A stretch of DNA of 64,000 nt from Norana najaformis (Eukaryota; Annelida; Clitellata; Crassiclitellata; Hormogastridae), in the NCBI GenBank assembly GCA_964023275.1, contig OZ029914.1, forward strand, positions 45,859,437 through 45,923,436, read 5' to 3'. The translations under genes and the position numbers were made by a program. The stretch's first letter is position 1, and the number at the start of each line of letters is the position of its first letter. The notes beneath the pieces were generated by a model. The model ran no database searches, was not told the origin of the DNA, and saw only the letters and a program-made list of their open reading frames with translations. This document shows positions 1,263-56,984 of this stretch, piece after piece.

Positions 1263-2015
1263 AACAAGGTATTTCAACCGAAATTGTATCGTTTATCTTA
1301 CAAACATGTACATGTATCAGCTCTTAGAATATTATTCACAGAGGTAATTCGGCATCGCAGACTCAGGCGCTGAGGGGAGAGTTATCCATCACGGGACTCC
1401 CGATAAAGCGTGGAAAATCATACCTCCATCATCCTGCTCTGCACACGGGGCTATGGTTGGGTAGCGGAGTTTCCGTATCGTCTTGACACAAAAGCTTAGC
1501 GATGCAAAATGATGTATATGTGAGCACCTCTTAACATTAACACAGTATTGCAAAATTGTACAGTAGTCAGGAACGCCCATCATCTCGTTATGAAGGCATT
1601 GTTAAATGGAATCAGTTGTCACGTGTGTACTTTTATCTAGATTAAAATGATTCTTCAGACAAGCGACTTTGATCGACTGGCTGTTATGATCTACTTGGAA
1701 ATGACAAAAATGTTGTCAATCACGAAGGCTTAGCTGAATGTCTGAACGATTCCATACACATGTAAAAGCTTCTAACCAGATACTATGTAACTGCTCGCGT
1801 ACATCTACAATTGCTTGTTTTCAGTAAGTTTTCGTGACAAATCAGATTCCGACGGGGATTCTCCAGCAGATTCGACCACGCTTTCATCAGAAGTGACCAT
1901 CGATTGATGCCTTGTGCACTGTAATACGATATACGGCGCTATATAAGTCCTTGGATTAGATTAGAATAGATTAGATGATGTGTCGAGAGTGAATGCGTTC
2001 GGTTGGTTGGACGCG

Positions 2016-3053
2016 ATGACTGAAATTCGACGGTTCTTTTGCCAAGTGAAGAATCGACTCAAGTCAGGCAAAGGTAACAGCGAGACAGGAGAACTGCAAC
2101 AGACGAATACGAAAATAGCAAAAAAGGACGAGAAACATTCTGACATCAAGGAACCCGTTAACACGAAGATGCGTCGAACCCCGGATTTGATCAACTCACA
2201 TTCCCACGCCAGACTTCCGCCAATTCCCTTAGACGACGAATCTCGCCACGGAATCATAAGAGGCTACCCGGCAGTCGCTGGACACATCTACGAAGAAATA
2301 TCGACGAACGAAATGAGTACTCGATCAAATTCCCTTCATCCGGATTCATCCGTTGAACGGGACCGTCAAAACGGGAGGGGCGGCGTCTTCTATATATCGC
2401 CGATAGATGGCGCACTTCATCGACTCAGACCGGAAACCGGAAACAGGATCGTCTGCCCTCACCTTCACTTCGACCGTGGACTGGGTCCGGAAGTCCAGCG
2501 GCAAGTCTCCTTTACGCGCATGCTCTTCGGGAAGAACCTGAGCGTCTGTAGAAACTGCGCTAAGTCACTACGCGAACGATTCGTTTCCGGTGAGCCCGAC
2601 GTCATCTATCCGACGTACTGGAGATCCCTTGACCTTGGAAAGGTTGATATTCCGTGCCCCAATGTTCCTGAGGACTTCGTTTACGAAAGCCAGGACAGGG
2701 ATGTTGTCCCTGTAGACGGAACAGGCGAATTTTGTCAGGAAAGACGTCATTCTGTGGCTGCGGAGATGTTCAAGGGAAGACAGAGACCTGTGAGCGATAA
2801 TACAAGATTCCGAAGGGAAAAGATGGCGGCTGGAAGTGCGGATGACGTCGCCATGTTGGAAAAGCTGTCGTGTCGGGCTACCAAGTGTCGTCTGCCTGAA
2901 GTGGAAGCGAGGCTGCTGGGAAACAGGTCGAACAGAGGTCAGAGGATGCATGAAGGACGGGCCAAAATGGCGGCGACACATATGAGCATGAGCAATCTCT
3001 TGCTATCGGATATCTTGCGGCGAAATCACGACAGACAATGTCTCGTTTGGTGA
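2016..3053 (+). CDS. Unrecognised 345-residue protein, single open frame
   Basis: Open frame with ATG at 2016 (the frame is open from about 1965). I do not recognise a family. Visible features: a basic N-terminus, LPPIP at 67-71, HIYEEIS around 90-96 (YEEI resembles a Src-type SH2 ligand), a CPHLH at 147-151 and a CRNC at 178-181 that could hold a metal, and an Arg/Lys-rich C-terminal third ending CLVW. The region is free of repeats, GC-richer than its surroundings, and followed by AATAAA about 200 bases on. A short repeat ends right at the 5' side (about 1975), so an upstream exon is possible. It could be a full single-exon gene or a terminal exon. Confidence 0.6.
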   Translation: MTEIRRFFCQVKNRLKSGKGNSETGELQQTNTKIAKKDEKHSDIKEPVNTKMRRTPDLINSHSHARLPPIPLDDESRHGIIRGYPAVAGHIYEEISTNEMSTRSNSLHPDSSVERDRQNGRGGVFYISPIDGALHRLRPETGNRIVCPHLHFDRGLGPEVQRQVSFTRMLFGKNLSVCRNCAKSLRERFVSGEPDVIYPTYWRSLDLGKVDIPCPNVPEDFVYESQDRDVVPVDGTGEFCQERRHSVAAEMFKGRQRPVSDNTRFRREKMAAGSADDVAMLEKLSCRATKCRLPEVEARLLGNRSNRGQRMHEGRAKMAATHMSMSNLLLSDILRRNHDRQCLVW

Positions 3054-5690: not shown

Positions 5691-6375
5691 GTCTCGGCAT
5701 GTAAGGGTTAGTCCTCCCCTCGCCCCTTCATCTCACCCCCGACAGAATGCTCTCGCACGTGCTGTCACCAAAACCCCCAAACACCATCACATCACCCCTG
5801 TTCTCAAATCACTGCACTGGCTTAAAATACCAGAACGAATAGAGTACAAAGTCTTATCCCTCACCTACAACACACTTCAATCCTCCCAACCCTCCTATCT
5901 TCGTCAATTATTTACAATCCAACCACTCCGTTCAACCCGCTCCTCATCTGTCCTAACACTTCTTCGCCCTCCCGTCACCTCATCCTTAAAATTTGGAAAT
6001 CGCTCCGTAGCCATAGCTGCCCCACCCCTTTGGAATAAACTCCCGCCAGAACTGCGACAGTTGTCTGGTCAATCATACGAACTCACCAACACTTCACCTC
6101 TCAGTTTCTGCACAGGTCTTTCACTCAAGACTGAAAACACTTCTTTTCCAGAAATCTTATCCTGATTCTTCCTCTTCCCCTCATCTCGCTTCTCGCTTCA
6201 ATTTCAAACAGCATCCACCGTAGCCGTCCGACTGTCTGAGTGCCTGACTCCTGGATCTTGACCCTTTTGCCTATCGATTTTGTTTTGACTGAGCGCCTGT
6301 GAATAAGCTGGTTCCCGCGACTTAGCTTTTGTTGAGCGCTGTAGAAATCTCGAGATTACGATTACGATTACGAGT
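5690..6375 (+). mobile_element. CR1/L2-like non-LTR retrotransposon 3' end (family E, longest copy)
   Basis: Despite stops, the plus strand encodes the typical RT C-terminus: HITPVLKSLHWL, ERIEYKVLSLTYNTLQ, FGNRSVAIAAPPLWNKLPPE. It is followed by a 3' UTR (GAGCGCCTGTGAATAAGCTGG) and a (GATTAC)n tail. 5'-truncated and defective. A separate tail fragment lies at 5115-5250. Confidence 0.85.
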
Positions 6376-13100: not shown

Positions 13101-16100
13101 GCAGGCAATGTCCAGAGTGTGGTTGGTAATGATGACCTCCCCATAGTGTTCCACCCAGCGCTGGCCTCCAAGAATATTGTGGACGCACGAAGTGGCTTTG
13201 TTCCATGAGTAATCTTCCTCGTACCTACAATTTCAACAAACACACCAATCCACTGCTACAGCAAAACGATAACAACAAAAGTCATAATAATGGGTCAAGA
13301 AAAGGTAAGGTAAATTCAGGTAAGATGTAAGGTAAGGCAAGGTAAATTCAGTTAATACATAGCAATGTAAGATAAGGTAAAAGCGTTTCTGTTTTTCTTA
13401 CCTGGTGAGCCTGACATTAACAACCCCAATTGGTTCAACTTCCATCGACTTCCCCCAGAATTTCGTCTTGACTTGCATGTCTGAAAAAGTTAAAGAAATG
13501 CCAACTGCTTAAAATTCATCACTCACCATAAAGAAAGACAAACCTACAGCAATTTAACATACCATTCAAAATATCTGAGTTTCGACATTTTGAAGAGACA
13601 CTATACAAGTTTTCTAATTCACATTCACTTTTAATGCTCATCAGGCAGAGATGGAGATACATCTGGGCAAGAGACTAATCACTGGGAAAACTGCCTCCAA
13701 ACATATTTGAACTACTCAGGGAAGTTGCCGCCTAATACCCAACCCTTTCTCCTACATCCACCCCTTTCTGATCATCCGTCAAGCAGATCTTGCGGCATCT
13801 TTGGACAACTCAACTGACTTGACACAGCTGTAATTAATAAGGTGGTGCCCTTACTAAGCTTTTAAGTAGCAGTTTAGAAAATGTTGAGTTTAAAGTTACA
13901 AAATGCAACCAGTTTACGCTGAAAGTGCTCCACGCTAGCCGTTTAACTGCCTTTTAGTCCATTTACACCAGATTCAGTTCCTTGGCCTGCCAAATTATCC
14001 AGAAAAACCAACATTTTATGTTTTATAGCAATTCCTCAGCTGGATGAAAATTCGCTGTCATGGAAGATAGTTCACCTAAGGTCTCCTGTAATCAGGCTTA
14101 CCCAGAATTTACAGATTTAAGAAACTATGGTGTGCAATAAATAACTCTTTATTGTTAACGCACCCTGCCAGAAGACAAAGTTTTTTGATTCACAGAAGCA
14201 AGTAGACACAGGTGGATGATGGCTCACCTGAAAATACAATACAATACCGTCAATGCTATACAGCGAATGACAGAAGGCATGACGAGCTCAAGCTGATGTG
14301 TGAAAGCACAGTACCTGCATATCTCCATGGGCAGAAGAGAGAAATGACTTCTCATATCTGAGCACCTACTTAGACTTACCCCACCTTGGAAGAGAAGTGC
14401 ATGAAGAACGTACCTGTTCTGCCACAAACTTCCATCCTTTGTCCTCTCGAATACACTCGTAAGTTTCCCCCAGAACAGGGTTGAAAGGCTTCTGCCCGGC
14501 ACGCGTATAGGTTGACGAGTAACCACTCACAGCAAAGGCCGCAATCCACACCTAAAACAAGTTCCACGAAATGATCCTCAAACTACACTTTGTGGGGAGT
14601 TTCTACAGACCCATGCAAACACGTGAAAGTGCATATATGTGAAATGACTCCTCAAGATGCTTCACATAAACTTACGGATCATAATCACGTTTTTAAATAT
14701 AGAAATTAAATAGACAACAAGGCTCCTCGTCAAGTTTCTTTCTTACAGTACTCGTCCAAGTTGTTAAGTCAGCACACTGGTGTATCTACGGACCCACAGA
14801 GCACCCCAGTGCCGGGACCCTGGTCTGCAAAAGAGGAGATCTGCTCAAAGCCTGAAAAGCACAGAAATGCTCATTTGGAGTCAGTTACTCAGTTACATTT
14901 TAACGGTGGTGTATGGTTCCAGTTCTCCAACTGTAAAGAAAACTAGCCCTGCAACTCCATTAGATTTCACAGAAGTAATAGAATAGATTCCCATTCTCTT
15001 ACCATTCTTTCAAAGGGATCTTCAAACTCCGTGCAACGATCCAACAGTTCGCTATATTCGAGTTCCTCACACAGTCTCTACATTTAAAACAGCATAAAAT
15101 AACCACTATTTTTAAAAAAACACTACTATTAATATTACAAAATAAAACAACAAATGAAGCAGAAACAAATTAAACCAGATACACAGTAAAGAAACTTGAA
15201 TATCGCAAACTCTTCAACAGATTTAGCAAAACCTGAATTCCAGACACAGGGTTTAAAACAGCATCCACATCCGATTCAACCAATAACGGCAACTGAAAAA
15301 GGAAATGAAAAGAACGTGACCTAAGACCTCTGAATGCTATAATAAATGTCGACTCCAGATGGAACTCCATCAGTTTGTCTGCGTTTGGCGACTCTTCTTG
15401 TTATCTGAGCACAACTCATTAACATTTTCTTCAAAATGAACTTTAACCCCATTTAGGCATTTTAGATAGCCCTTCTGTGAGGTACTACAAGTCGTGTCTA
15501 GATTACTAACCCCATAACTAACTAGAATGTGAACGGAAGTTTAAGTTTTAGCAACCTGCAGAGCATTGAGAGGTTCATTCATAGAAACAGGCATGGAAAT
15601 CTTGGAAAGGTCTTTTCCGATATTTTTCCGCAGAAGACTCCACACCCCGACGTCCGATTCCATCTTTGGAGATGGCAGCTTAGACCTTCGCCTCATCTGG
15701 AATCGTGTGAAATGATCGTGCAGTTCATCCGCTAAAGTAGACAACAAATCAACAACACCTTCTCTGAGATAACAAATTGTGGCTAACGTTGTACCTTTAT
15801 TATTAAACAAACGATAACTGGAGAAACATCTTTTTCGTAGTTTAACATGAAGAACAGCAGTCCCTTAAGCTAACCCAGAGAGGCAGCCATGGTCATGAAG
15901 TGTTAGCAACTTCTTATTTCTTAGCCTCGTCACATGAGAGTGGGAGGTCAGTCCTCTCCCTCGCTGTCTGATCTTCCGACTGATAGTATACAGTCAGCGT
16001 GCTCATCACAGCCAAGTTCGCTAGGGAGCCCGAGTGGGGACAAAAGCCTATTTCCAACGCTATTTTGCAAAGATTTTTAACAATTTCTAATAAATCAAAG

Positions 16101-19100
16101 AAGAGAAAATCATGACATGTCAACTGAGTACTTCTGACAGATTTGTAAAAAGCATTGCGTGTAAATTTGTCCTGAGTCCGTGGTGTATAAGGCGATTCTG
16201 AACAACAGACAAATACGAAACGCGAAAGTGAAAACTCACACACAGGGATTTGTTTCGTCTCTGTATCCGACACTTCTTCATCTTCCTCCTCCTCTTCCTG
16301 GTCCTGCAAATACAACAGTTTAGTCCGTTATTAGTCTTTGCTTACAACCGAAAAAAGATTCGATTACTATGAACCGCTAATTACCACAGTTTTCATGGAA
16401 GTAAATAAACTAAAAAACTGCTGAAACCAGAAGCAGAAAAGGCCAAATCTTTCCCTCAAGCCAAAATGAGAAAACTATTTAAATTACTAAGCAAAACTTG
16501 AGTCCCTATATTCTGTCACTTCTAAGTGGAACAAAATTCCAAAATCACAGTCCTTTGGACAGAACTAGCCAAGATCCATCAGGCCCCAGCAGTGGCATGG
16601 CTTCTGAGGGCCCTTGTGCAAACTAAACTTTGGTTATTTTGCTTTAAGTAATTGAGCATCCAGGCCTTGGCCCCACTGGGGCCCCGGCAGGTCCTGGTCT
16701 CATGGGTCCTTGCGCACAGAAATGCTCATTTGGAGTCAGGTGGTGCTACTTATTCAGTATAGTTCAACCTGCACAACCTATTGCTGAGCCTCTGGGCCCC
16801 AGATACCAGATGGTGTGCTACAGATGGTTAGCAGTCCGAAAAAGGTGAAATTTTAGCCCAGACCTAAACCGCGTAATCTACAATTATACAATTACGCATT
16901 CATCAGAGTCTTCTTTGTTGATGAAATCTTTCATGGTTACCAAAAGCAGGAAAATTTTGATCAAAAATACGAGATTTAAAATATGAAAACTTATGGCTTT
17001 TCATACTTCGGAAACATCAGAACTTGATGTCAGTCGCTCGGCAGCATCGTAAAACTCGCACAGACTGTCGAGGGAACCGGCAAAATGCATGCGCTCCTAT
17101 CAAGAAACAAAACAACAACCATCATCACATGCAGACAAAAAGAAATCCACATTCAATCAAGAAGTAGTAGTTCCAATGTTTAATGACATCTTATGGCATC
17201 AAAGGCCGTTGACGTCGCCCTCCTCCTTTATCCAGGCTTGGGACTGGCACTATCTGACTAAAAGCACTGGCAGAGTTTCAATCAAGAACAATCAATTTAG
17301 CAATTTGAAGCTATTTATATACAGCCCTTTTGGCCCATACCAGATTGTTTGGACTAATATCTTTGAAGACAAGTGGAAACAAAACCCACAAGAACCTGGA
17401 ATCGACCATGGAAAAAACGTGGAAACAATACTACGGAAAGAGGGCCACGAAAGTGGCATCTTACTGAAGGTGGTCCGCAGACAGAGTTGAGGCACGATCG
17501 GTTTGAAGCACCACTGATTCAGCATTCAGTCTATTACGGCATTCTGCTTCAGACATAGTACACGCAATAGTCTCTGCAACCACGTCAGTTACTCAGTTAC
17601 ATTTTAACGGTGGTGTATGGTTCCAGTTCTCCAACTGTAAAGAAAACTAGCCCTGCAACTCCATTAGATTTCACAGAAGTAATAGAATAGATTCCCAGTC
17701 TCTTACCATTCTTTCAAAGGGATCTTCAAACTCCGTGCAACGATCCAATAGTTCGCTGTATTCGAGTTCCTCACACAGTCTCTACATTTAAAACAGCACA
17801 AAATAACCACTATTTTTTAATAACACTACTATTAATATCACAAAATAAAACAAGAAATGAAGCAGAAACAAATTAAACCAGATACACAGTAAAGAAACTT
17901 GAATATCGCAAACACTTCAACAGATTTAGCAAAACCTGAATTCCAGACACAGGGTTCAAAACAGCATCCACATCCGATTCAACCAATAACGGCAACTGAA
18001 AAAGGAAATGAAAAGAACGCGACCTATGACCTCTGAATGCTATATTAAATGTCGACTCCAGATGGAACTCCATCAGTTTGTCTGCATTTGGCGACTCTTC
18101 TTGTTATCTGAGCACAATTTGGTAACTCATTAACATTTTCTTCAAAATGAACTTTAACCCCATTTAGGCATTTTAGATGGCTCTTCTGTGAGGTACTACA
18201 AGACGTGTCTAGATTACTAACTCCCTAACTAACTAGAATGTGAACGGAAGTTTAAGTTTTAGCAACCTGCAGGGCATTGAGAGGTTCATTCATAGAAACA
18301 GGCATGGAAATCTTGGAAAGGTCTTTTCCGATATTTTTCCGCAGAAGACTCCACACCCCGACGTCCGATTCCATCTTCGGAGATGGCAGCTTAGACCTTC
18401 GCCTCATCTGGAATCGTGTGAAACGATCGTGCAGCTCATCCGCTAAAGCAGACAACAAATCAACATCATCATCTCTGAGACAACAAATCTTGGCTAACAA
18501 TGTATCTCTATCGTTTAAACAAACGACAACTGAAGAAACACCATTTTCGTAGTTTAACAAGAAGAACAGCAATCCCTTAAGAGGCAGCCATGGTCACGAA
18601 GTGTTAGCGACTTCATATTTCTTAGCCTTGGCATATGAGAGCGGGCGGCCAGTCCTCTCCCTCGCTGTCTGATCTTCCGACTGACAGTATACAGTCAGCG
18701 TGCTCATCATAGCCAAGTTCGCTAGGGAGCCCGAGTGGGGACAAAAGCCTATTTCCAACGCTATTTTGCAAAGATTTTTAACAATTTCTAATAAATCAAA
18801 GAAGAGAAAATCATGACATGTCAACTGAGTACTCCTGACAGATTTGTAAAAAGCATTGTGTGTAAATTTGTCCTGAGTCCGTGGCGTATAAGGTGATTCT
18901 GAACAACAGACAAATACGAAACACGAAAGTGAAAACTCACACACAGGGAGTTGTTTCGTCTCTGTATCCGACACTTCTTCATCTTCCTCCTCCTCTTCCT
19001 GGTCCTGCAAATACAACAGTTTAGTCCGTTATTAGTCTTTGCTTACAACCGAAAAAAGATTCGATTATTATGAACCGCTAATTACCACTGTTTTCATGTA

Positions 19101-22100
19101 AGTAAATAAACTAAAAAACTGCTGAAACCAGAAGCAGAAAAGGCCAAATCTTTCCCCTCAAGCCAAAATGAGAAAACTATTTAAATTACTAAGCAAAACT
19201 TGAGTCCCTATATTCTGTCACTTCTAAGTGGAATCAAATTCCAAAATCACAGTCCTTTGGACAGAACTGGCCAAGATCCATCCGGCCCCAGCAGTGGCAT
19301 GGCTTCTGAGGGCCCTTGTGCAAACTAAACTTTGGTTATTTTGCTTTAAGTAATTGAGCATCCAGGCCTTGGCCCCACTGGGGCCCCGGCAGGTCCTGGT
19401 CTCATGGGTCCTTGCGCAGAAATATTGCTCAACCTGCACAACCTATTGCTACGCCTCTGGGCCCCAGATACCAGATGGTGTGCTACAGATGATTAGCAGT
19501 CCGAAAAAGGTGAAATTTTAGCCCAGACCTAAAACATGTAATCTACAATTATATAATTACGCATTCATCAGAGTCTTCTTTGTTGATGAAATCTTTCATG
19601 GTTACCAAAAGCAAGAAAATTTTGATCAAAAACACGAGATTTAAAATATGAAAACTTATGGCTTTTCATACTTCGGAAACATCAGAACTTGATGTCAGTC
19701 GCTCGGCAGCATCGTAAAACTCGCAGAGACTGTCGAGGGAACCGGCTATGGCAAAATGCATGCGCTCCTATCAAGAAATAAAACAACACCCATCACCACA
19801 TGCAGACAAAAAGAAATCCACATTCAATCAAGAAGTAGTTTAATGACATCTCATGGCATCAAAGGCCGTTGACGTCGCCCTCCTCCTTTACCAGGCTTGG
19901 GACTGGCACTATCTGACTAAAAGCAGTGGCAGAGTTTCAATCAAGAACAATCAATTTAGCAATTTGAAGCTATTTATATACAGCCCTTTTGGCCCATACC
20001 AGATTGTTTGGACTAATCTAATCTAATCTAATCTAATGACATCTATAGAGCCTTTATCACAATGCCCAAGGCATCAATCGATGGTCAATTCAAAACGAAA
20101 TCATAATCAAAGATCTTTGAAGATAAGACCAAGGAATCAAAACTGTGGAAATAAAACCATGGAAACAAGACCCTGGAATCAAAACCATGGAAACGAGACA
20201 ATGAAAACAAGACCCTGGAAACGAGACAATGAAAACAAGACCATGGAAACAAGACCGTGGAAACAATGGAAACGAGACAAAAACAAGACCCTGGAAACGA
20301 GACAATGAAAACAAGACCATGGAAACAAAACCGTGGAAACAAGACCATGGAAACAAAACCATGGAAACAAAACCATGGAAACAAGACCATGGAAACAAAA
20401 CCAAGGAAACAAAACCAAGGAAACAAGACCATGGAAACAAAACCAAGGAAACAAGACCATGGAAACAAAACCGTGGAAACAAGACAATGAAAACAAGATC
20501 ATGGAAAAAACTGTGGAAACAATACTATGGAAACAAGACAACGGAAACAAGGGCCACAGAAAGTGGCATCTTACCTTTTCTGAAGGTGGTCCGCTGGCCA
20601 GGTAGACAGAGTTGAGGCAAAGAGGAGGGACGATCGGTTTGAAGTCTGTCACCACTGATTCAGCGTGAATTCGATTCAGTCTATTACGATATTCAGCATT
20701 CTGCTTCAGAGTCTGTTAAGCATAATCAAACATAGTACACGCAATAACAAACATCAATAAACAAACTAGTAAACAAAAGAAGTAAGAAGACAGGTAAATC
20801 ATACAATGACTTTCAGTCTCTGCAACCACATGGACCTTGAATAGTTCTGTTCAACAGATAAATTAAAATTATAGAATGTGCTTTTACCTATAAGTGACCA
20901 TCAACCTTAAATCTTAAATTACAATTACAAATTACAATTACAACCAATGCCTTATGCATTACGACAACAGCACAAATGATGTTTCCAGATTAGATTAGAT
21001 TAGATTAAATATACTAACTAATACCCAGACCAACTGACTGTTTATTATTATTAATCAGTAACTTTTATGGTGCCAGTGTCTACCGATGATGCACCAAAAA
21101 AAGTGCCATAATCAGGTCAAAATTCAGAAGATCAGTTCACTAAGAGAGAGGCAGCCTCTGGCGGATAAGCAATTTGGAAAAGGTAAGTCGAGACTGACAG
21201 ACTATGAACCACAGTCTAACAATTTCTATGGCCTTAATATCTGACGCAGAAGTAGAAGCCGATCTGAAGATATCTGTACTTCCAAAACAGTGGTCTGTGA
21301 AATCAACAATGGCCTGATTGATGACCAGTAGAGGAAATTCATATGTCATCATCACACTGGTGATCTTGCATTGATCCTGCATTCCAGCTGCATTCACAAT
21401 CGTTTGGTAAATTGGCTGTGAAGAGGAAGTAATCTAATCTAATCTAAAAACTTCTATAGCGCCGCTATAATAACACTCAAGGCATCAGTCGATGGTCGCT
21501 GCTAAACAAAATCATTGTCCAAGTCAAATTCCAAGGTGAGTCCGGTCGAAAACCCAAGGGAGAATCCAGAAGACACAGAGACAGCTTACAGAGGAAATGA
21601 GTCAAGGACGACGTGAGCTTTTAGTCCAGATCTGAAGAACAAAACAGACTTTGCTGAGGAAACATTTGAGAGTCTAGGGCCAGCAACAGAAAAGGCACTC
21701 CTGCCGAGAGCTGTCCTTGTCCACAGAATAGTCAGATTTAGACCCTCATAAGACCTGGTCAAGCAGAGGCAGGTCTTGGGAGTCAGAAGCGTACAAGTCG
21801 TCAACTGATTTCGTGTCGTCAACTGATTTCCTGCCAAGTCCTGAGTATGACCACAAAGTCAGATGACCAACTGTTTATCGTAATCGTAATCGTAATCTCG
21901 AGATTTCTACAGCGCTCAACGAAAGCAAAGTCACGGGAACCAGCTTATTCACAGGCGCTCAGTCAAAACAAAATCGATAGGCAAAAGGGTCAAGATCCAG
22001 GAGTCAGGCACTCAGACAGTCGGACGGCTACGGTGGATGATGTTTGAAATTGAAGCGAGAAGAGAGATAAGGGGAAGAGGAAGAATCAGGATAAGATTTC

Positions 22101-25100
22101 AGGAAAAGAAGTGTTTTCAGTCTTGAGTGAAAGACCTGCACAGAAACTGAAAGAGGTGAAATGTTGGTGAGTTCGTATGATTGACCAGACAACTGTCGCA
22201 ATTCTGGCAGGAGTTTACCTCCGCAAGCGTCTGTTTGAGTGACTGTATGTAGTTAGCATTGCTGTGCACTTTGACTAAACTGTCCGACTCGACTGCCTGC
22301 CTCAAACGCTCCCGATCCAACGTCAACGACCGACAGACAGCCTTCAGGCTACTGTGAACTAGAAACAAGAACACAGCAAAAATCATTTGTCACAAGGTGA
22401 GAACTCAATCGATCAGTTACGCTGTCGGAATATTTTGGACAGAGTTGAGCCTTTTCATCTGCTATTGTTCTCTTTCTTCTGCTGTTTCTGTTACAAACAG
22501 ATTTCTGGGAGTTTCATAAAAGTGACTGGAATCCTTTGAGAAGTTTTTGCTGGTGCATATCTTGCAAGTTGCAAAAACGGAGAAATCTACTGCAGACAAA
22601 CTGAGCGAAACTAGAGCAGAGAATAAATTACTGCAGTGGAATGAATTTACTTTTAAATTACAGACTTTGAAATCCAACAATCAGTTGACATTTCGTGACC
22701 TAGTTATTACAGTTTACCTGAAACTGTTTTTATAGAAGAGAAAGTTGAACAAAATGATTGGTGGCATTTTGGAGTAATCTTTCATAGGCGAACAGAGACA
22801 GAACAATAACTATATTTCTCATTGTAATACCATGATGAAAAACATGAACACCAGGTCTTCACCTTCTTCCGCTTGGCGATAGAAGAGTTCTTGGAGCAGA
22901 TCAAAGTCCCTAGAATCCGATCCTCCTCCGTTTTTCGTGGAAGTTCCAATTACGACTGGTTCATCCATTGTCAACAGATTCGGGTTGGACGTACTCAAGT
23001 GGATTGTCATCAGGCCATCGGCCACCTAGAAAAAACAATAAAACATTACAGTTCTGTCAAAGTGTAAAACAGAACATTTCGGTAAAACTCTTCATTCATT
23101 GGAATCTCGGTTCAAATGCCAGCTGAGAAACTGGCAAATGATCTTCCTGCACGTGTCATGAATAAAATCTGCAACTTGGAAGAAGATTTATCAGGATTTA
23201 GTGAAGGAAGTTTAGTGGCAATTGCACCGTATGTGGATGCAGTCACCAAAGCAACTACAAATAACCATAGAAGCAGCTGGTTACTTTCGGTGCTAAACAA
23301 ACTGTCACTGTTAGATTAAATTAAGTTTCATTTGTTTTCTTGCTAAAGGTAGATTAATAAAACCAATCCAGCACTTTTAGGGCAAGATAAATAAAAAAAA
23401 GATTACTATTACTGTATTATTTCTGTATTTATTCTCAGAGAGAGAGAGACAGACAAACACACAAACAGACAGAAACACACACAAAATGAAAGAGACAGAG
23501 ACAGACAGAGAGAGAGATAGACAGACAGACAGAGACACGCATATAACTGACAGAGAGAGAGAGAGACAGACAGAGCAGAACCGACCGACAATCGGTCCTT
23601 GGTCTTGCGGTCTTTCTTCTGAGTCTTAGTGAGCAGAGGTTTCTTGCCACCAGCAGCCTTTATCTTCTTTGAAGTCGGAGAAATTGCCAGATCCTGGAAC
23701 TGCCGAGTACCAAAAATTAAGCAAGTAAGTAATCAAGTACGTTAACACAACACAAATGCTGATACATTACAAACGATGCATAGAAAACTGCATTAAAAAA
23801 GAAAACACAACGTCAGTAGAAAATGATGCAATAACCATCAAATGCAAAGCGAACATTAAAAAAGGCACCACATAAATCTCTTCAAAATCATCAGTTTCCA
23901 TGGCAACACACTTTCCTACACATCTCCACAGAAACTCCTCATCAGAAACAAGGTCCTGAGGTGAAAGGATCATTTGGCTGAGGTGCACACATGACCACAG
24001 CAACCCAATAAACAAATACCTCTTTAAACCTACCAACATGCGCTGGTAGTCATTTAACAACCAACAAAGAATGAAGGGCTGAGTTACCACCAGGTGGCAT
24101 GTATTCCACCCATCCAAGTAGTACCTGTTAAGCATGTGTTTACACCCAGGTGTTAGTACAAACACTCCAACATGAACCCCGCACATAATGGCAATTGTTC
24201 CTCGAGTTAAGTCCTCGCTTGCTCAGCAGAGGGCTTTTGCTGTTGTTGGCCCATCTCTATGGAATGGACTTCCGCTATTGTTTCGTGCAAGGGTCACTGT
24301 TGGTTATAGAGCTCAGTCAGCTGGTTGTTTAAAGACGTTCTTATTTCCCCGGGGTTCTCATGCTGGAAGCGCCTCTGAGTAGTTTGTTCCGTAAGAAGTG
24401 CTATATAAGTTACCAAATACAATACAGTACAATACAATCATGAATTCCCAACTGTAAGCACCACTGGGTCCTCTACCTTACCCCAAGGAAAAATCCTTCA
24501 AGAACCCATTTCTGAAGTCATTTAATCCTTCTTCAGCACAGAAAATATACTTAAATTGTAACTTAGCATTTATAGGGCAAACTGTAAGTACTGTAAGTAC
24601 CTCCTGAACGTAAGTACTTGAGCCTGAATTTGCAGTATGCTGCAACTTCTCCAAAACTGCACTTAATTCGAACATCTTCAGCTGAACGGAATTTAGTTCT
24701 AAATTTAAGAAAACAACAAAGAATCAGTTTCATTCCTAGCACAGTTAACTAATTATATCATAGTTAACAAATACCATAGTTAATTAATAACATACTTAAT
24801 TAATAGCATAGTTAACTGATTATATCATAGTTAACAAATACCATAGTTAATTAATAACATACTTAATTAATAGCATAGTTCTAATACCCATAGTTAACTA
24901 ATTATATCATAGTTAACAAATACCATAGTTAATTAATAACATACTTAATTAACAGTATAGTTAGCTGATACCTTTCTTCAGTTACATGACTACTGCCCTC
25001 TCTACCCCGCAATGCAGAAGAAGGGGTTGGGCCAAGAGGGAACCCAAACTTCTACATCAAATGATTTTCAGCATTTTTTTCTCTGGTCTGAGTTTTCCAA

Positions 25101-28100: not shown

Positions 28101-29790
28101 GCAACAACACCAAGTAGATAGTGTAACATAAGCTGGTACTAAGACGCTTTTCCGTTCTCTTCCCGCATCTCTCTTCGCGGCATGTATTCATGCAATGTCA
28201 TCAGTTTATGGCTTAAAGTGCATGCCGAGTGCTGCGCTAACTTCCTCTGAAAAGCTTTCTCTGCGTGCGATCAAGGACTACAAAAAAATCCTGCAGAGAG
28301 AACTGCTTTGTATTCACTTACTAGGGTTCAACATCAGCAGTTTTGATGCTTAGTCATTACAGAGTGGAGCTTAATAAATGCAGAAATAAAAAACCAACAG
28401 AGGAAAAGCACAATTTTAAAATTGTGGAGGTACACGTGTCTGGCAATACCAGACATTACTTAAAAGTACACTAGAATCTTCTTACAACGTACTTCATTAC
28501 AGCAAAAATTCTGTTACGACACGGTCGGGACATCACACCTGTGGGTCTCAAATTTTACAATGCGTTATAGCATGACGTCATTAATTAATAACTTAGTAGT
28601 AGTTTCCAATGTTTAACATCTTATGGCATCAAAGGCCATTGACGTCGCCCTCCTCCTTCATCCAGGCTTGGGACTGGCACTACCCGACTAAAGGCAGTGG
28701 CGGAGTTATTCCATAACTTCATCCTAGCGCAACATATATATATATATATGCGTGTGTGTAGCATATATATGCTAGAATGAAGTTGTGTAATAATGACGTC
28801 ACAATTTTTTTGACTTTATAATAATGATGATATGTAACACAATAGGTATATATATATATATAGACATAAATCATCATTATTATAACGTCATTGCGATGTC
28901 ATTATATATATATATGTATATATATACACACACATATACATATTGTGCTACATATCATTATTATAACGTCATTGTGACATCATTACTACACAACTTCATT
29001 CTAGCAAACACACACACGTGTGTGTGTATGTGTGTGTAGGTGTGTGTGTGTAGGTGTGTGTGTGTAGGTGTGTGTGTGTGTGTGTGTGTTAGGATGAAGT
29101 TGTGCTTCATGTAGTGTCCAGATATAGTAGCCAGAACAGGGTCTCCATCTTGTCAATGGCACAGACGGACATCGTGTTGCCAACAAGTAAAACCAGGCTG
29201 ACAAATCAAATACAAAAATGCAATTCTGATTTATTTCATCGAGAAATCCGGGTAAGTTAAGAAGAAGTGAGCAAAAGCGAACAAATACAGTCCTCCATTT
29301 CCCGTTTCCTTCATCTCTTTCGAAAGCAATCATAATTATCGTACTCACATCTCCCGGAGTTTTGCCATAAATCAAGATTCCATTCTCCAACAAGAAGAAG
29401 CGCTAACAAGAAAACAGAACATAAAAACACATCTATACATACATATATATATACACAAAATATCATATATATATCGATATGTATATTACATTTCTCTATT
29501 TGCACATGTATAGATATACACTGTTAGCATAATTATATTTATCTATATTATAATTTATATATATATATGCATATGTCACGAATACATACATACATAATTA
29601 TGAATGACAAGTAACCAATAAACACATATTTATAAATACATGCTAAACAGATAGATACATTTTCTATTTCTGAAATTAAATTTGCATTGATTGAAAACCT
29701 TAATTTTCGTATGAGCATTTGTGTGTAGATACAGCATATAAATGCAAGTGCCATAACATATGTATTTATGTATGCAAGTACAGATGTACT

Positions 29791-35200: not shown

Positions 35201-38200
35201 TCAATATATGCCTAGTAACTGAAGAGAACCCAATGTTTCACCTAGTAGGCGACATTATTCTTTGCAACCTGCAGAACCAAAACTCGAAGTAAAACCTGGT
35301 AATTTCTGTGACAGACACTTCAGAGACTCAGCCATCAGACTGTAAGACAAATGTCATCAAAACATAGTCTCTGGAGGCGACTCTTGCTAACTTCTCTTAT
35401 TCAGATCATTTTGAAATGAAGAACAGAGAAAAATATCTAGAAGGAAGAAATAAAAAGCGAATAATGCGAGGGCCACAAAATGTAAAGTGAATCTAGTGTA
35501 AATAGGCAAAATTGCTCAGCACAACAGAAAACATGCCTCAGGGAGAATAGATTATTTGTCGGGCAAACAATCCAGTCTCTCTCTGACTCAGGTTTCCAAT
35601 AATAATCCGGTCACCCGTAATTAATCAGAGCCAGACTGTTAGGTCAGTTTCTGTTACAGGTCAGAATCGAGAGGTCATGTAAGGTAAAGCTCCAATGTCC
35701 CAAGCGGAATGTAGGGAAGGCACTCATTTCCCGCTTTCCGGCTCTTGTTCGGCACCGGACGAATCCCAAGATCCTGGACACGGGGCCGGCGCATTGCAGG
35801 ACTTGTACGCAAAGTATCCCATACCCCATAAGTGAGGCGTTAGGGGGTGCTCATTTCCTCTTCTTGGCTCTTTAGCTGGCAACGGACGAACCCCAAGGTC
35901 CTGGACAAGGGGCCAGCGCATCGCAGGACTTGCCGTTAACTTCGCAGCCTACGCCGGCACCAAATTCCAGCCAGGGAAGAAGAAGGTACTGATCGCCTCG
36001 GCTGTCCAGCTAGCTTCGTCTCGATGGTGACCATCCATAAACTGTCTGCAGTGTCGTTCTCAAGGAGTCATTTCGATTGCTATGCCTCCAGTCGTCAGCT
36101 TCCTCTCCCCACCGTGCTTATTCAGGTCACTTCCACTCATCTCATCATCAACAATGGAACGCACGAAACCCAGTTAAACCCAGCCTCTCATAATAAGCTG
36201 GTCATAAGAGTCATCCGTCAGTCCATCCATCTATCCACTCGTCCATCCATCCATCCGTGCGTCCGAAAGTCTATGTATTAGTCCATCCACTCATCCACCC
36301 ACCCATACATCGATCGATCGATCGATCGATCCATCCATCGATCCATCCATCGATCGATCGATCCATCCATCCATCGATCCATCCATCCATCCATCCATCC
36401 ATTCATCCATCCATCCATGAGTCATCCGTCAGCCCATCCATCTGTCCAGTCATCCGTACATCCATCCATCCACCCATGAGTCATCCGTCAGCCCATCCAT
36501 CTGTCCAGTCATCCGTACATCCATCCGTGCATCCGCAAATCTATCCATCTGTCCATCCATCTATTCATCCACCCATCCATTCAACCATCCATCCATTCAT
36601 CCATCCACCCATCTCGCCCTCCATCCACCCATCCATCGGTCAACATCTGAACATCCCGTGCAACGCAACGCACTGCTCTGCGTAAACGACACGACACACT
36701 CGGTCCGTCGCGTGAGGCCCGACAACCGCCGAACGCATCCGATTTCTTCCGACGCATATATCATACTCACCCGAGCATCGGCGTTCGTTCTCAACGGGGA
36801 ACGGAGACTTCTTCGTCTTCTACCACGTAGCAGTAGGCAGCGCAAATACGCGCCGGAGAAATCGCCCACGCTGATCGCCGGTGTGGTACTAAATCGGTTA
36901 GGGGGCGAAAACAGTTCCGGAAAGTATTGCGATTGGTTCACCTGTGACCGAAACGCGGAAATTTGTTTCGAAAATTCGAAGTGTTCAGTCGATACCGTGT
37001 CAAAATCATGTTCTCTCTTAAATATCTTATCAGTCGACAGTGTCAAAATCATCTACTCTCTCTTAAATATCTTATCAGTCAATTGTATCCTGTATCAAAA
37101 TCATCTTCTCTTTTAAATATCTTAAATAAAAAATTCTTCCTCTTCCCCTTATCTCACTTTCAGGTTCAATTCCAAACACCATCCACCATAGCCGTCTGAC
37201 TGTCTGTCCGCCTGTCTGCCTGCCTGCCTCTTGGATCTTGACTTGGAACCGAACTCTTCCTGTCTATCATTTTGTTTTGACCGAGCGCCTGTAAATAAGT
37301 CGGTTCCCACGACTTAGCTTTCGTTGGGCGCTGTAAAAATCTCGAGCTTACAATTACGATTACTGGGCCTCCATTTTCGCTACTTAATAAATTTGTTCCA
37401 GATGAACTTTTGCTATCAAAGCAACAGAATTCTCCCTTCGTTGTGCCAAAGGTAGGCCAAATCGGAACCGTCTGTACCCCGGAACCTATCGGGCACCACA
37501 GCCGCTGGCGTGCCGGGCAAGACAGATAATCAATTTGTTCGCGATAATGAAGGCCATTGAAGATGAGAAGCGAGAAAGAAGATGGATGGACGAGGGTCCA
37601 ACGTGGCACAGGGCAGGCGACACTCGCAGACAAACACGGAAGAAAGATTTCACGGTGTCATAGCTACTCTTGTTACCATGGCAACCTCCGTTACCAAGGG
37701 AAACCAAAACATAGACGGGTCAGCGATGGCAACAAATTCGTGGCCGTTGAGCATAAATAATAAAAATAATGACACAGGAATTGAAAATTAAATGACCACA
37801 CGTATCCTTTCGACCCGGGTCGTATTATTAACCGCAACACATTCGTTGGGCTCTAGGCGTGGGAGTCTGGCCACTCCGGTTATAGTGGTCACTACTGTTA
37901 CCACGGGAACCTCTGTTACCATGGAAACCACCGCAGGCAACACATTCGTGACTGTTGAGTACCAGTAAGCCAAATAAAGACACAGGACACTTGAAACTTA
38001 AAATATTCAGAAAAGAACCCCAAGACCTGAGATGATTTCTCTGTGTGGGTTCAGCTGGCAGCGGTGGGGGGGTTGGTGGGTGAAGGGGCGGACAATGGCC
38101 TATTTTCGGGCTTCATATTCCCATTTCTCTGTGACCGTATGCGCTACAATATTTTTCATAATAATAGAAAGAGGGGGAAAGGGGGCGGGGAATGACCCAT

Positions 38201-55961: not shown

Positions 55962-56262
55962 ATCATAATCGTAATCGTAAGCTCGAGATTTCTACAGTGC
56001 CCAACAAAAGCTCAGTTGTGGGAATGAGGCTACTGACAGGCGCTCAGTCAAAGCAAAATCAACAGGCAGGAAGGTTTCGGTTCCAGGTCAAGATCCAAGT
56101 CAGGCAGACAGACAGTCAGACGGCTATGGTGGGTGGTGTTTGGAATTGAACCGGAGAGTGAGATAATGGAAGAGCAAGAATCAGGACAGGATATGTGGAA
56201 GAGGAGTGTTTTCAGTTTTGGGTAAAAGACCCGCACAGAAACTGCAAGAGGTGAAATGTTGC
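55962..56262 (-). mobile_element. CR1/L2-like 3' end, family E inverse copy
   Basis: Reads family E in reverse from the (ATTACG) tail at 55965 to the CTCAGCAACATTTCACCTC part. Lies in the 5' flank of the ORP gene. Confidence 0.8.
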
Positions 56263-56984
56263 TGAGTTCGTATGATGGGTCATTAAGATGTTGCCAAGAT
56301 GTTGCACTCCCGACACACTATCCATGCATTAAGAGACAACCGCTGCCAAGGCAATCAGCAACAGCTGGCAAACGAGTGACAGATAAATGGATTGCAAGAC
56401 GTTGTCTTAAGGCAATCTACAGCTTTCCTTCTGATCAAACGGCAAGACGTTTTTCTTCCCTCGACTCTTTCGTAATTGCACTGGCAAGGAAAAAGCGCAT
56501 GCACAATTGATAGGCACACTTTATCAGGCGCCACTAGAGGTCTATTTGATGTGTCCCCGGTAGGAGAAGCACTGAAAAGTGCAAAGGGACTCAATCTTTT
56601 GTCGGCAAAAAAGCCGTCCATCGAACCATCTGCGTTACTGAATAATTGACATATGCGGTTGACCACATGAGGATTTCCGTTGCTACACTCTTCCAAGAAA
56701 TGGCTGGTAACAGCAGCTACTAATGTGGCCCCAACACATGTAGACATATAGTATTTGGTTAGAAAGCATAACCATTTAGGCTTTGCAGTTGACATTGTCG
56801 TCTAGCTACTACAAAAGCCATTGTATATATAGTTGTGTCCGTCATTGTCAATATTACTATATTTTTTAAAATATTATTATTATTATTATCAATCAGATTA
56901 GGAGTCTATCTGATGTGTCTCCGGTATTGTGCTAATTTATCGACCCAAACGTGCAGGAATTTACATCAAAAGTATGGATGTGTT
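56263..56984. other. 5' flank with an open frame of unknown meaning
   Basis: A 146-codon minus-strand frame at 56355-56795 (starts MSTAKPKWLCFLTKYY, Cys-rich) is the only sizeable frame; no family recognised and it abuts family E and a TTATTA run. Could be a transposon scrap. Confidence 0.3.

Follow-up and report, generated by a model that had tools for sequence, protein, structure and literature searches.

The window analysed here, a 64,000-nucleotide stretch of contig OZ029914.1 from the annelid Norana najaformis (assembly GCA_964023275.1), contains no N and carries an oxysterol-binding-protein-related gene on its minus strand, whose exon translations match PH and Oxysterol_BP domains in a Pfam profile search. 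With the exons joined by eye, PF15409 (PH_8) was matched at E 1.3e-9 (38.6 bits against a cut-off of 30) and the general PH model PF00169 reached 23.8 bits, just under its cut-off of 25.1. PF01237 (Oxysterol_BP) was matched at E 2.6e-58. The nearest solved structures are those of ORP3 (7dei and 7dej, with 7dei at E 6.4e-51, and 7cyz at E 8.2e-48), followed by the ORD of ORP1 at E 8.9e-33. Because of the PH_8 and Oxysterol_BP matches and the proximity to ORP3 structures, the gene is named ORP3-like on its sequence, a name that does not distinguish ORP3 from ORP6 or ORP7, since neither of the latter is among the 12 solved-structure matches. ORP3, ORP6 and ORP7 constitute one subfamily. The window gene shares with ORP3 (OSBPL3) a PH domain, an FFAT-like motif, an acidic stretch, a lid and an ORD, and the doubled exons are the only remarkable difference noticed. 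Rfam returned no matches in the window at the gathering score.

The preliminary description of this DNA had exons 12-15 occurring twice, head-to-tail, and self-alignment bears this out. The two copies of this direct repeat, ~95% alike and each with consensus splice sites, align as 14880-16728 against 17584-19431 (95.05% over 1860 columns) and as 16758-17358 against 19423-20017 (94.2% over 607 columns). The doubling had been placed at 14880-20830; the direct repeat is real, but clean copy B ends at 17358, and what follows is a lattice of 15-base words with correspondences up to 20829. The exon numbering below follows the preliminary description, and exons were delimited by splice sites and frame.

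14414-14551, minus strand: exon 16, in which the ORD continues (also supported by Oxysterol_BP and ORP3 matches)
14880-17358: copy B, clean part, on the exon 16 side (~95% identity to 17584-20017)
15003-15077, minus strand: exon 15, copy B
15556-15731, minus strand: exon 14 (ORD lid), copy B
16240-16303, minus strand: exon 13 (acidic), copy B
17007-17096, minus strand: exon 12 (FFAT-like CEFYDAAE), copy B, with 6 bases fewer than in copy A
17359-17583: probable artefact seam of 15 blocks of 15 bases, with shredded remains of exon 11 (block matching)
17584-20017: copy A as far as copy B matches it cleanly, on the exon 11 side (self-alignment)
17707-17781, minus strand: exon 15, copy A
18267-18442, minus strand: exon 14 (ORD lid), copy A
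18941-19004, minus strand: exon 13 (acidic), copy A
19672-19767, minus strand: exon 12 (FFAT-like CEFYDAAE), copy A
20018-20829: region on the copy A side matched by the seam blocks, including a 14-bp minisatellite at 20125-20551 (alignment, block matching)
20575-20712, minus strand: exon 11, intact copy, 46 codons, phase 0

The motif CEFYDAAE, encoded in exon 12 of both copies, resembles EFFDAxE, which we take to be the FFAT consensus.

Several further repeats were recorded. An exact 25-base repeat lies at 14860-14884, running into the start of copy B, and at 16715-16739, within a stretch of ~40 bases of copy B that copy A lacks; a short dispersed element is one possible explanation, a further assembly scar another. 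A repeat of ~113 bases (~90-92% alike) is found in both cassette copies (17163-17275 and 19838-19934) and at two further sites in the window (28594-28707 and 53841-53954). An interspersed repeat of ~340 bases occurs at 6036-6373, 21878-22217, 37133-37363 and 55962-56276, with two copies inverted and 95.9% alike and two more at ~80%. A 25-bp minisatellite occupies 48292-50104 (72.5 copies, 98% matches). Two plus-strand open stretches, 1965-3050 (362 codons) and 5692-6162 (157 codons), have no Pfam match at E 0.001; the second resembles the terminal part of a reverse-transcriptase gene from a retrotransposon.

Coding capacity and divergence of the two copies

Each copy has four exons with consensus splice sites and neither stops nor frameshifts. 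As had been claimed, either copy alone or both together keep the frame: the combinations 11-A-16, 11-B-16 and 11-A-B-16 are all open. Exons 13 and 14 can be joined in more than one way, and the pair TGT/gtgagt and tttag/CGG was chosen as nearer to consensus (by consensus, not RNA). With this pair, the intron that separates exons 13 and 14 is in phase 1. The earlier statement that every exon begins and ends in phase 0 is thus correct for the cassette as a whole, which starts and ends in phase 0, and holds for each exon only with a shorter exon 14 and a weaker donor. The same choice governs cassette length. The ~122 residues first proposed are recovered with the shorter model (122 for B and 124 for A, by hand count), whereas the consensus pair yields 411 bases or 137 codons for A and 405 bases or 135 codons for B, open throughout.

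Substitutions were counted outside the seam (17359-17583), starting from the sixth base of each copy. The coding sequences differ at 8 of 405 aligned bases (2.0%) and by a 6-base in-frame indel. Six of the eight substitutions are synonymous and two are replacements (L/I and R/H). The indel and the Leu/Ile change had been noted before, together with five synonymous changes; dropping codons 54 and 58 reproduces that count of five synonymous changes and one replacement. In the introns, 77 of 2008 aligned positions differ (3.8%), and there are 8 indel events covering 71 bases. Transitions outnumber transversions by 55 to 30 when exons and introns are pooled, and the divergence is uneven, with 31 of the 85 differences falling within the 300 bases 18389-18688. 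The introns had been said to differ more than the exons, and in these counts they do, but not significantly (Fisher p = 0.075). Judged on these sequences, the divergence between A and B is compatible with that between alleles. In highly heterozygous species, alleles can differ to such an extent.

The seam between the copies

An alignment with low gap costs first revealed that a compressed version of the exon 11 region lies between the two copies. The copies are separated by 225 bases, that is 15 × 15, and the phase of the blocks extends back to 17359, the very position at which clean homology gives out. The nine final blocks (17449-17583) are exact, consecutive and collinear 15-mers of 20559-20829, starting on the copy A side at 20559, 20580, 20604, 20630, 20650, 20674, 20696, 20731 and 20815, with 6, 9, 11, 5, 9, 7, 20 and 69 bases dropped between them. 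Exon 11 is shredded in the process: six exact blocks (17464-17553) retain 90 bases of 20580-20710, and the remainder of its 138 bases is absent. The first six blocks comprise one exact match (at 20513), four with a single mismatch and a more divergent one (17434-17448), which brings the seam as a whole to 10 exact blocks of 15. The five inexact blocks lie in or beside the 14-bp minisatellite, and for two of them the best placement within it is ambiguous or out of order.

When word lengths of 10-30 were tried in all phases, only length 15 in a single phase (phase 0) tiled the nine-block stretch, and no other length did so. Random small deletions were rejected as the origin of the seam: in controls with identical gap sizes and random block lengths, 0 of 200,000 tiled this stretch. 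These results bear directly on the idea that the exon 11 remnant arose by biological decay, a true duplication having been followed by numerous small deletions. The remnant does align with exon 11 and its flanks, as decay would have it, but nine blocks free of substitutions, all precisely 15 bases long and in a single phase, strongly contradict that account, and we consider it scarcely credible. We know of no mutational or other biological process that retains exact 15-base words in a fixed phase, whereas a program operating on 15-base words could, and for this reason the seam is probably the product of k-mer-based software. It is very probably not the organism's own sequence. Some seam blocks differ from A, which suggests that another version of the locus, and not copy A itself, supplied the chain.

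In an effort to identify the software, we asked whether the nine blocks are minimizers, using six orderings (the minimap2 hash and lexicographic orderings among them) and seven window sizes between 3 and 20. The nine blocks were never all minimizers in these 42 trials, and the best result, 6 of 9, arose where a third to half of all positions are minimizers (37% in the best such case for density, the forward lexicographic ordering with window 5). The minimizer reading is thus unsupported. HyPo, a polisher, is a conjecture as to the source. The phrase "concatenated k-mers" as a name for an assembly artefact was absent among the literature matches listed.

Origin of the doubling

The preliminary description had offered three possibilities: mutually exclusive cassettes, a protein with two FFAT motifs and two lids, or two haplotypes wrongly placed in series by assembly. 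The last of these is the best supported. A published class of assembly error, the heterotype false duplication, consists of neighbouring copies that differ as alleles do, with unsupported sequence between them, and its form termed "false exon gain" doubles exons within one gene (Ko et al. 2022, PMC9516828). As in the cases that the consulted part of that paper describes, a few exons of one gene stand head-to-tail in the window, with allele-like differences and an unfaithful join; the joins described there are runs of N, whereas the join here is a 15-mer lattice, a form absent from that part of the description. Since a corrupt seam joins copies whose differences are compatible with alleles, as in this published error class, we consider it very likely that the doubling arose during assembly, as a haplotypic false duplication.

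In such an event each chromosome would carry one block of exons 11-15. One contig would run from the exon 16 side through exons 15-12 of haplotype B into the exon 11 region, and a second would start within haplotype A and continue through exons 15-12 to exon 11 and onward. The two would have been placed end to end with their overlap not removed. The tail of haplotype B, ~810 bases if as long as that of A, would have been poorly supported, and a k-mer step with word length 15 would have cut it to the fifteen 15-mers at 17359-17583. An anchor-based polishing or consensus step is the presumed maker of the seam. The real gene would then be an unremarkable ORP3-like one, with a single FFAT-like motif and a single lid, in a heterozygous individual whose two alleles are distinguished by two amino-acid replacements and an indel of two residues.

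The lattice shows that the seam is corrupt and does not by itself prove that the doubling is false, as a polisher could also damage the seam of a true duplication; we infer both the allelic status of the copies and the falseness of the join. Two observations weigh against this reading: the differences are concentrated in 18389-18688, and five seam blocks lack an exact match in A, two of them without a clear, ordered placement. A genuine duplication whose seam was damaged, its exons used or unused, is unlikely, though it deserves some weight. The more plausible form of it is a tandem duplication of exons 11-15 that arose recently, whether fixed or confined to one chromosome, and in which mis-polishing of the middle removed the second exon 11 and the extra exons are skipped or unused. 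Consensus splice sites and open frames in both copies are consistent with this, and the seam blocks that differ from A leave room for a draft that may once have held a second, fuller sequence. There is also a precedent, as Ko et al. found one allele-specific tandem duplication that was genuine, at haploid depth (PMC9516828). Nonetheless, a well-covered true repeat should give no cause for a loss of support at the seam alone, and the divergence is that compatible with alleles; we regard a recent, unused duplication as quite improbable. Arguments from the breakpoint and from microhomology at 17583/17584, which were reasoning only, fail to separate the models.

A cassette in actual use, whether as mutually exclusive exon sets or by joint inclusion, the protein then having two FFAT-like motifs and an additional ORD lid segment, can draw on the three in-frame splice combinations. 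A choice between two four-exon sets would be unusual, which counts against such use. Mutually exclusive use of tandem exon duplicates is itself a known mechanism (PMC9741552, PMC9013439), and the window copies resemble such exons in being near-identical, in tandem and frame-preserving; they differ in having four exons per copy and an artefactual seam, and in being known from sequence alone. The joint inclusion of both copies is not favoured by domain content. The single-copy protein is collinear with the ORP3 ORD chain in the structure-database alignment, whereas Pfam reads the double version as two Oxysterol_BP stretches. The A copy would there be a partial ORD start lacking the remainder. 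Because the upstream lid would lack a complete ORD of its own, a functional double cassette with two FFAT-like motifs and two lids is unlikely. Together with the seam and the non-significant difference between exon and intron divergence, these points make a cassette in use very improbable. We give equally little credence to a true duplication of exons 11-15 whose middle exon 11 was lost in the assembly only, with isoforms that choose between, or carry both, FFAT-acidic-lid cassettes. In a literature search judged by title and the start of the abstract, no on-topic report of a duplicated ORP3 or ORP6 exon cassette was found.

The pattern of substitutions had previously been taken as constraint on both copies. 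As a sign of real paralogues this does not discriminate: two functional alleles would show it too, the contrast that the argument needs stands at p = 0.075, and the seam between the copies is a 15-base lattice. A duplicated, intact cassette as a feature of the organism's biology is not supported, and false duplication of two haplotypes is the reading we prefer.

Consequences for annotation

A lattice of fixed-length words is recognisable from sequence alone and offers a cheap, read-free diagnostic, and such lattices could be sought in other assemblies to flag false duplications. At this locus, failure to correct the sequence could lead to an ORP gene being recorded with four additional exons and later quoted as a case of exon duplication.
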